A DNA stretch of 40,110 bases from Planctomycetaceae bacterium (GTDB lineage Bacteria > Planctomycetota > Planctomycetia > Pirellulales > Pirellulaceae): the NCBI GenBank assembly GCA_003233175.1, contig QIKY01000169.1, forward strand, positions 1 to 40,110. The letters are read 5' to 3'. Of this stretch, positions 25,223-27,747 are shown in pieces; positions within the stretch are counted from its first letter, which is position 1, and every line of letters begins with the position of its first letter. The notes under the pieces are model-generated. The model ran no database searches. It was not told the DNA's origin and saw only the letters and a program-made list of their open reading frames with translations. The position numbers were made by a program, and so were the translations under genes.

Positions 25223-26743
25223 TTACTTCCCGCCGGCAATACGGTTCACGGCGTCGAGAATTGCCATCACGGTGGCTTCGACGGTGTCGGTCGAGACGCC
25301 GCGCGCCCGGTGGATTTGGCCGTTGTGCTCGACTTCCAACGTAACTTCGCCCAGGGCGTCGTGCCCCAGCGTGGCGCTGCGCACGCGGTAGTCTTTACAT
25401 ACCAACTTCACGCCCGTGATCTGTTCGGTGGCCAGGAAGGCGGCGTCGATCAGGCCATCGCCTTCGGACGTTTCCTGCGTGATTTCCTCCTCGCCCCGGC
25501 GGAGCGTTATTTTCACGCGCGGCGGGCTGCCGCTGGATGAAGTGGCCTCGAACCTGACCAGCGACCATTCCTCGTCGGGCGTGTTGTGCAGTTGTTGCTG
25601 AACGAGGGCCACGATATCGCCGTCGTAGATTTCTTTCTTTCGGTCGGCCAACTCCTTGAACCGCTCGAACACCGAACGCAACTGCTCGCCGGTGAGTTGG
25701 AAGCCCAGCGATTTCGCCCGGTCAGCCAAGGCGGCGCGGCCGCTATGTTTTCCCAACACCAGATCGGTCTTGGCGAAGCCGACGTCTTCGGGCCGCATGA
25801 TTTCGTATGTGGTCCGCTCCTTGAGCATGCCGTCTTGGTGGATGCCCGCTTCATGCGCAAATGCGTTGCGGCCCACAATGGCCTTATTGCGTTGCACCTG
25901 CATGCCGGTGATTGCGGAAACCAGGCGGCTGGTCGGCGCCAGCCGTTTGGTGTTGATGCCGGTTTCGTACGGGTAATAATCGCTGCGGGTGTGGATCGCC
26001 ATCACGATTTCCTCCAACGCACAATTGCCCGCGCGTTCGCCAATGCCGTTGATCGTGCATTCGATCTGGCCGGCGCCCGCTTCCAACGCGGCCAAACTGT
26101 TGGCCACCGCCAGTCCCAAATCGTTATGGCAATGCACGCTAATCACGGCTTGGTCGATGTTCGGCACGCGGTTGATGAGCATCTCGATCACCTTGCCCAT
26201 TTGCGCGGGCGTGGCGTAGCCGACGGTATCGGGAATGTTGACCGTGGCGGCGCCGGCGGCAATGGCCGCTTCGACAACTTCGCAAAGAAAATCGGCTTCG
26301 GTGCGGGCGGCGTCTTCGGGAGAGAACTCGACATCGTCGCAATAACTCACGGCGCGTTCCACGCCCGCCACCGCCCTGCCGATAATCTCTTCCCGCGTCA
26401 TCTTCAACTTGAATTCGCGGTGAATGGCGCTGGTGGCCAAAAAGACATGAATGCGAGGATCTTGCGCGCCTTTAACCGCCTCCCACGCGCGGTCGATATC
26501 GCGGTCGTTGCAGCGGGCCAGTCCACAGATGGCGGCGCCGCGAAAGTTATTCGCAATTTCCCGCACGGCTTCAAAATCGCCCGGCGAGGCGATGGGAAAA
26601 CCGGCTTCGATGATGTCGACTCCCAGCGTGAGCAACGCCTGGGCCACCTCCAACTTCTCCGGCAGGTTCATGCTCGCTCCAGGCGATTGCTCGCCGTCGC
26701 GGAGCGTGGTGTCGAATATACGAATTTGTTTGCGATCCGCCAT
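25223..26743 (-). CDS. leuA: 2-isopropylmalate synthase
   Basis: 506 residues, full length. The enzyme condenses acetyl-CoA with 2-oxoisovalerate, the first committed step of leucine synthesis. N-terminal TIM barrel: IFDTTLRDGEQSPGASM (metal and catalytic Arg-Asp), VHCHNDLGLAVANSL (metal-binding His-x-His), and GIGERAGNCALEE; the linker and the C-terminal LeuA allosteric domain (about 390-500; VKITLRRGEEEITQ to DAVNRIAGGK) for leucine feedback are present. The start ATG 26743 has AAGGA about 9 bases upstream. Expression is likely controlled by the leucine-rich leader and terminator upstream. No other leu genes are in the window. Confidence 0.97.
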   Translation of the reverse strand: MADRKQIRIFDTTLRDGEQSPGASMNLPEKLEVAQALLTLGVDIIEAGFPIASPGDFEAVREIANNFRGAAICGLARCNDRDIDRAWEAVKGAQDPRIHVFLATSAIHREFKLKMTREEIIGRAVAGVERAVSYCDDVEFSPEDAARTEADFLCEVVEAAIAAGAATVNIPDTVGYATPAQMGKVIEMLINRVPNIDQAVISVHCHNDLGLAVANSLAALEAGAGQIECTINGIGERAGNCALEEIVMAIHTRSDYYPYETGINTKRLAPTSRLVSAITGMQVQRNKAIVGRNAFAHEAGIHQDGMLKERTTYEIMRPEDVGFAKTDLVLGKHSGRAALADRAKSLGFQLTGEQLRSVFERFKELADRKKEIYDGDIVALVQQQLHNTPDEEWSLVRFEATSSSGSPPRVKITLRRGEEEITQETSEGDGLIDAAFLATEQITGVKLVCKDYRVRSATLGHDALGEVTLEVEHNGQIHRARGVSTDTVEATVMAILDAVNRIAGGK

Positions 26744-26897: not shown

Positions 26898-26930
26898 AAA
26901 AAAACCCCGAAAGCCAAGTGGCTCCGGGGT
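26898..26930 (-). terminator. Intrinsic terminator in the leuA leader (attenuator)
   Basis: On the minus strand ACCCCGGAGCC, loop ACTT, then GGCTTTCGGGGT forms a stem of about 11 bp with one bulged T, followed by seven T (26904-26898). It lies 33 bases after the stop of the leader peptide and about 155 bases before the leuA start. The 5' arm (CCCC and GCC) is complementary to GGGG (26963-26960) and GGC (26970-26968) at the end of the leader ORF, so an alternative antiterminator is possible. Confidence 0.85.
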
Positions 26931-26962
26931 ATAGCTGACTAAAGTTCGTATCAACAACGCCC

Positions 26963-27025
26963 CTACGGCCTGACGGCGGAAAGTCCGCCGGTTGCAAGTA
27001 AAAGTAGTAGGGCGAGGTTGTTCAT
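26963..27025 (-). CDS. Leucine-rich leader peptide of leuA
   Basis: 20 residues: MNNLALLLLLATGGLSAVRP. Seven of 20 codons are Leu, five of them consecutive (CTA CTA CTT TTA CTT, codons 6-10), using codons expected to be rare in this GC-rich genome. After it come a hairpin CGGCGGA/TCCGCCG (minus strand, 26990-26974, overlapping the last codons) and the terminator. This is the standard layout of ribosome-mediated leucine attenuation: stalling at Leu codons would free the later segment to prevent terminator formation. A weak GGAAAAG Shine-Dalgarno sequence lies just upstream. Confidence 0.85.
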   Translation of the reverse strand: MNNLALLLLLATGGLSAVRP

Positions 27026-27098
27026 GACTTTTCCGGGTCGATCTTCCGTTTTTCGGGCCGTTTTTCGGGCGGCAAATGCAGCCGCCTTCAATAACTGT

Positions 27099-27127
27099 AC
27101 TCTACTGGAGCTTTTTAGGCCGGTCAA
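27099..27127 (-). promoter_or_regulatory. Candidate promoter of the leuA leader
   Basis: On the minus strand TTGACC (27127-27122), a 17-base spacer and TAGAGT (27104-27099). Transcription would start near 27092, about 67 bases before the leader-peptide ATG. A GGCGGC/GCCGCC hairpin and two CCCGAAAAACGG repeats lie in the leader between. Confidence 0.5.
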
Positions 27128-27336: not shown

Positions 27337-27747
27337 ATGTTTATCAAATTACTTGCTGTCGTGGCTGCGTCGGTTGGCCTGATTTTGGTCGCCGGAAGTT
27401 CACCGTCTGCGAACCCGACCTGTTGCATGAAGCGGGCCTACTGCTGCTCGGTCAAAGCACGCTGCTGTGATGGAAACGCCGCAATCGAAAAGACAGTTGC
27501 CATGGCCACTGCAAATGCCAGCGATGACGTCGCGATGCCCACTTGCTGCATGAAACACGCCTATTGCTGCTCGGAAAACCGAAGCTGCTGCTCGAAAGCC
27601 TCGGCCCAGAACACGCCGGATGCGAAAGCCGTAAAAGCGAACGACGTTGCCAGTAACGAAGCTGCAATGCCCACCTGCTGCATGAAACGCGCCTATTGCT
27701 GCTCGAAGAACCTAAGCTGCTGTGGTTCGACTACGACTAGCGGATAA
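27337..27747 (+). CDS. Secreted Cys-rich protein with three CCx5CCx5CC repeats
   Basis: 136 residues. Signal peptide MFIKLLAVVAASVGLILVAG, cleaved probably near SSPSA. The mature part has three near-identical units, PTCC-MKRAY-CC-x5-CC, at residues 29-44, 70-85 and 114-129, each with six cysteines as three CC pairs spaced five apart; linkers of about 30 residues are rich in Ala, Asp, Asn and Lys. The function is unknown. The cysteine pairs could bind soft metals such as Cu or Zn or form disulfides. The start has AAAAAGGAG about 9 bases upstream. It is divergent from leuA; a weak TTGACG/CAAAAT promoter lies near 27139-27168. Confidence 0.85.
   Translation: MFIKLLAVVAASVGLILVAGSSPSANPTCCMKRAYCCSVKARCCDGNAAIEKTVAMATANASDDVAMPTCCMKHAYCCSENRSCCSKASAQNTPDAKAVKANDVASNEAAMPTCCMKRAYCCSKNLSCCGSTTTSG

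Follow-up and report, generated by a model that had tools for sequence, protein, structure and literature searches.

In enterobacteria, the attenuator upstream of leuA encodes a leader peptide, LeuL, with a run of Leu codons that includes the rare CTA, and its transcript can form protector, antiterminator and terminator structures. We analysed a stretch of 40,110 nucleotides from a Planctomycetaceae bacterium (contig QIKY01000169.1; Pirellulaceae, order Pirellulales, class Planctomycetia), here called the window. The region upstream of its leuA gene resembles the enterobacterial leu attenuator in having a leader with a Leu run and rare CTA, alternative pairings, and a place before leuA. There is no recognisable sequence similarity between the two, and no Rfam family reached the gathering cut-off in the window; matches in the leader region up to an E-value of 10 were chance-level hits to other families. 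Unlike in the enterobacterial operon, leuC lies on another contig, apart from leuA, and a second open reading frame (ORF) follows the leader in Pirellulales.

Leader-peptide attenuation has been documented in Proteobacteria, Actinobacteria and Firmicutes (PMC2965389, PMC1262725, PMC5794164). The Leu-rich attenuator peptide of Staphylococcus aureus is similar as a Leu-rich leader over branched-chain amino acid genes outside Proteobacteria, but it belongs to another phylum and operon and is combined there with the regulator CodY (PMC5794164). The actinobacterial LEU element lacks a terminator and forms a pseudoknot, the base stem of which includes the Shine-Dalgarno (SD) sequence of leuA (PMC1262725), whereas the planctomycete leader ORF, ORF1, has an intrinsic terminator. 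Short leader genes have been counted in Planctomycetes generally, without leucine or leuA (PMC4833913). An earlier note on this DNA, made from the sequence alone, knew of no described planctomycete case; our search of the open-access literature on planctomycetes and leader peptides or attenuation, which did not cover closed-access work, likewise found no leu case. Attenuation itself is known, and a class-wide leucine attenuator in Planctomycetia, as predicted here, has no precedent that we found in this literature. It would widen the phylogenetic range of leader-peptide attenuation and gives a concrete hypothesis for the control of leucine synthesis in planctomycetes. Leader peptides and prematurely ended transcripts that are missing from genome annotation are a further prediction.

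The leuA leader and its predicted attenuator

The leuA gene of the window encodes a 2-isopropylmalate synthase of 506 aa (positions 25223-26743, minus strand; NF002086 with 751 bits and TIGR00973 with 713 bits, both above cut-off), and the leader elements lie upstream of it on the same strand. We predict, with a probability of about 0.9, that leuA is regulated by a ribosome-mediated, leucine-responsive transcription attenuator. The features that point to it comprise a leader ORF with a codon run for the end product of the pathway, an intrinsic terminator at fixed spacing between leader and structural gene, a putative antiterminator that uses the 5' arm of the terminator and would exclude it, and a putative protector that would free the antiterminator only upon stalling at the control codons. 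Sequence comparison among relatives shows the leader, the Leu codons, the terminator, the distances between them and the rival pairings; from these we infer that the promoter is used, that ribosomes stall, that the terminator is efficient and that leuA responds to leucine.

The leader transcript has a sigma-70-like promoter candidate, TTGACC-17 nt-TAGAGT, at 27127-27099 (9/12 matches). ORF1 (27025-26963) has 20 codons and encodes MNNLALLLLLATGGLSAVRP, followed by a TAG stop. Seven of its codons are for Leu, five of them consecutive: a CTC is followed by the run CTA CTA CTT TTA CTT and later by a last CTT. A 7-bp hairpin, CGGCGGA-CTT-TCCGCCG (26990-26974), overlaps the leader end and is a candidate pause hairpin. 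The intrinsic terminator (26929-26898) begins 33 nt after the leader stop and consists of the stem-loop CCCCGGAGCC-ACTT-GGCTTTCGGGG (26929-26905) and a tract of seven T (26904-26898). Its fold of -18.2 kcal/mol was matched by none of 200 shuffles (z -4.3). The earlier note had listed the promoter candidate, the leader with its Leu run, the hairpin and the terminator, and all of them are in place. It had further proposed an antiterminator from GGGG and GGC at the leader end, complementary to CCCC and GCC in the terminator. This complementarity is real and belongs to a longer duplex (-19.2 kcal/mol) between GGCCGTAGGGGCGTTGTTGAT, which surrounds the leader stop and continues beyond it (approximately 26971-26949), and GTCAGCTATACCCCGGAGCC (26939-26920), which includes the terminator 5' arm. 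Partner-swap tests (0/5000) favour this putative antiterminator. The note also called the attenuator complete; this holds for the elements that it listed, but the region it described ended before a second conserved ORF and hairpin (26884-26786), which it missed.

In the proposed mechanism, transcription would start near 27090 and a ribosome would then translate the leader. With ample Leu-tRNA, the ribosome would reach the TAG stop and mask the antiterminator strand; the terminator at 26929-26898 could form and leuA would stay untranscribed. With scarce Leu-tRNA, the ribosome would stall on the mostly rare Leu codons CTA CTA CTT TTA CTT. The freed segment at the leader stop could then pair with 26939-26920, no terminator would form, and RNA polymerase would continue into leuA. 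If the leader was not translated at all, its start could pair with the stop region as a protector, and termination would likewise be favoured.

Conservation of the leader and competing explanations

Of 60 related genomes, close to one per genus, 59 yielded a leuA. The gene was also located in 80 named records of Pirellulaceae or other Pirellulales, in keeping with the planctomycete reading of the earlier note, and in genomes across the class and the phylum. An upstream region was scored as positive if it had an ORF 8-45 codons long, in which some stretch of 9 codons held 5 or more Leu, and, within 260 nt of the ORF start, a terminator with a stem below -9 kcal/mol and at least 5 T. Because this rule overlooks leaders that have diverged or lie over 650 nt from leuA, the frequencies are lower bounds; scans beyond the leuA upstreams were targeted searches. 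Of 120 non-redundant leuA upstreams from Pirellulales, 85 (71%) have a Leu leader with terminator, as compared to 0.17% of shuffled upstreams; so do 10 of 13 additional Pirellulales upstreams. With one locus per genus, 44 of 57 were positive. Roseiconus nitratireducens (L138) and Lacipirellula limnantheis (L133) are examples of cultured bacteria that carry the leader. In other orders of Planctomycetia, 31 of 53 upstreams followed the full rule and 44 of 53 had the Leu ORF alone; in other classes the rule held for 2 of 14. The same rule applied to the other 19 amino acids gave at most 4 positives (Ala) in the 120 Pirellulales upstreams. All 85 Pirellulales loci with a Leu ORF possess a terminator and 20 loci have neither (Fisher p about 1e-13). 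In these relatives, the Leu codons are kept while the rest of the leader peptide mostly is not, and the terminator is kept together with the Leu-rich leader; the earlier note had named loss of the Leu codons as an observation that would speak against attenuation and had proposed the alignment of relatives as a check. In the same genomes, no Leu leader with terminator was found at ilvB (24 loci) or leuC (23 loci), so among these genes the switch appears specific to leuA.

A chance small ORF next to the terminator of another transcript could mimic such an arrangement, since about 3% of shuffled upstreams contain a short Leu-rich ORF. The joint occurrence of ORF and terminator (0.17% expected vs 71% observed), its restriction to Leu and the enrichment of rare codons leave this explanation a negligible probability, and conservation across the class already refutes it. 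The rare codon CTA makes up 27.5% of the Leu codons in leader runs as compared to 2.2% in leuA.

The spacing is fixed, and partner-swap tests support the predicted pairings. Over 130 loci, the median distance from leader stop to terminator was 37 nt (interquartile range, IQR, 34-44), and that from the last Leu codon to the terminator was 61 nt (IQR 55-66). For the antiterminator, we took the segment after the Leu run as one strand and the terminator 5' arm with its flank as the partner. This duplex averaged -19.0 kcal/mol within a locus and -15.1 kcal/mol with the arms of other loci (0/5000 permutations); against shuffled segments the mean z was -2.3, with 104 of 130 loci below -1. The putative protector, which joins the start of the leader and its Leu run to the remainder of the leader, gave -25.2 kcal/mol as compared to -21.2 kcal/mol for swapped partners (0/5000; mean z -1.55), and it is visible in the minimum-energy fold of the window itself. 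The leader stop is TAG in 90 of 130 loci, probably because TAGGGG forms part of the antiterminator strand. Of 127 loci, 57% have a promoter match of at least 9/12 ahead of the leader, vs 5% of shuffles.

Several results weigh against attenuation as we propose it. Fifteen of the 120 Pirellulales upstreams have a terminator and no leader that attains 5 Leu within 9 codons. Relatives lend weak support to the hairpin that overlaps the end of the leader (mean z -0.49), and among 118 leaders with an ATG close by, only 20 are preceded by an obvious SD sequence. The sequences are related by descent and not independent, and the permutation counts therefore overstate significance. In other orders, notably in family f23, a Leu leader often occurs without a clear T-tract terminator.

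The last of these bears on the idea that the Leu leader works by translational control or through a protein that binds its RNA, the kind of mechanism suggested for the actinobacterial LEU element, and that the terminator is incidental. Actinobacterial leuA leaders have Leu codons and no obvious terminator, and their Leu-codon mutants do not behave as classical attenuation would require (PMC1262725). In Pirellulales, every Leu leader comes with a terminator at a fixed distance and the antiterminator outperforms swapped partners, and we regard this idea as very unlikely there. Five loci of family f23, which belongs to another order of the class (L188, L192, L195, L198 and L202), have Leu-rich leuA leaders and no recognisable T-tract terminator. 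This suggests a translational or Rho-dependent version of the leader in that family.

A second ORF and hairpin before leuA

Between the terminator and leuA of the window lies a second small ORF, ORF2 (26884-26786, minus strand), encoding MASAKPNRRPGRGLSRSCLLLTGRPRAGLPKK and then a stop, whose ATG and frame are conserved in relatives. An SD-like GGAG (26895-26892) is found 7 nt before its ATG. ORF2 contains conserved Leu-(Leu/Val/Ala)-Leu codons, here CTG TTG CTT (26830-26822) and called the LLL codons below, and directly after them a conserved, covarying hairpin without T tract, GGCCGGCC-AAG-GGCCGGCC in the window (26818-26800). Many Pirellulales share this element, which consists of AGGGC, the codons YTG-KTR-YTN and, 6-9 nt on, a hairpin such as GCCGACC-AGG-GGTCGGC. 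A covariance model run on 60 relatives found one strong copy per genome, before leuA and nowhere else, and a protein profile of ORF2 agreed with it in 40 relatives. In one genome, ORF2 alone was spotted first (L169/L291), and ORF1 with its terminator was then located further upstream. We rejected a dispersed repeat of the REP type for the hairpin, since strong matches are single per genome and only before leuA.

ORF2 might be an artefact, with the conserved motif being an RNA hairpin or a DNA operator alone. Four of the seven pairs of the stem have changed on both sides, each in as many as 10 sequences, and the third codon before the LLL motif is an AGG Arg codon in 22 of 32 loci, although AGG makes up 2.4% of Arg codons in the genes of the window, which points to nucleotide constraint. 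The coding pattern argues otherwise. The frame of ORF2 is open for at least 25 codons upstream in 31 of 32 loci, while each of the other two frames is open that far in 6 and 16 loci, and an in-frame ATG stands 10-30 codons upstream in 30 of 32 loci vs 2 and 2. The loci were picked by the hairpin and a TTG-like motif, a choice that in part presupposes the L-x-L codons and does not presuppose the open frame or the ATG. Changes in the motif are confined to Leu codons at its third position, where CTT, TTG, CTG, CTA and TTA all occur and no codon for another amino acid does (column-permutation p 0.002). Loci outside the set that defined the motif have the same peptide with L-L-L or L-V-L or, in L036 and L053 as inspected by eye, with L-A-L. 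We regard an artefact as quite unlikely. In the window itself, AGA (26839-26837, minus strand) aligns with the near-fixed AGG of the relatives (alignment A1). The conserved GAGG had prompted us to consider an SD sequence with a TTG start within the motif; we rejected this, as CTG occurs there almost as often as TTG and the codons are patterned as in an ORF beginning upstream.

On transcripts that read through the terminator, ORF2 probably adds a second control step in many Pirellulales. In a two-tier scheme, the Leu attenuator would act first, and ORF2 (M-x13-20-L-[L/V/A]-L-x-x-P) with its hairpin would decide separately on read-through transcripts, by stalling at Leu codons or by a nascent arrest peptide. 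This scheme is tentative, and we give it somewhat less than an even chance. The near-fixed AGG and the conserved Pro that follows the Leu codons leave room for codon-specific pausing or nascent-peptide arrest.

It is doubtful that ORF2 acts, more specifically, as a second leader controlling the translation of leuA, in which a ribosome stalled on the LLL codons would break a stem with the region before leuA. The LLL run does pair with the segment from the hairpin to leuA beyond shuffles (mean z 1.06, n=30; swap test p 0.004). When the footprint of a stalled ribosome was forced to be unpaired in the model, the start region of leuA became no more accessible (mean z -0.36). Duplex energies of the LLL run were weakly better than with shuffled downstream sequence (mean z -0.52), and the pairing positions vary. 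Occlusion of the leuA start or ribosome-binding site by an ORF2 structure was also modelled and was unsupported. ORF2 is like the actinobacterial LEU element (PMC1262725) in the potential of its Leu codons to pair with the sequence ahead of leuA; as compared to the base stem of that element, this pairing beats shuffles but is weakly supported and not SD-specific.

The tandem attenuators of Salmonella mgtCBR (PMC3641672) are similar to the two-tier scheme in having two short ORFs and alternative structures in one leader, with an unrelated operon and sequence. ORF2 and its hairpin make the Pirellulales leuA leader different from known attenuators and constitute a new, testable regulatory element. 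ORF2 would show whether tandem leader ORFs can meter one gene twice from the same transcript.

Other observations at the locus and in related genomes

In the window, a small divergent ORF of 136 aa (27337-27747, plus strand), which had no NCBIfam match, shares its intergenic region with the promoter candidate of the leuA leader. A record titled Alphaproteobacteria bacterium (L069, JAHDXS010000002.1) has a leuA 77% identical to that of the window and the same type of leader and terminator; this genome is probably mislabelled. One contig of a related genome (G040:C241:16866-20371) carries leuA twice within 3.5 kb, as identical copies in inverted orientation, each together with its leader. This inverted duplicate, which accounts for a doubled covariance-model match in that contig, is probably an assembly artefact.
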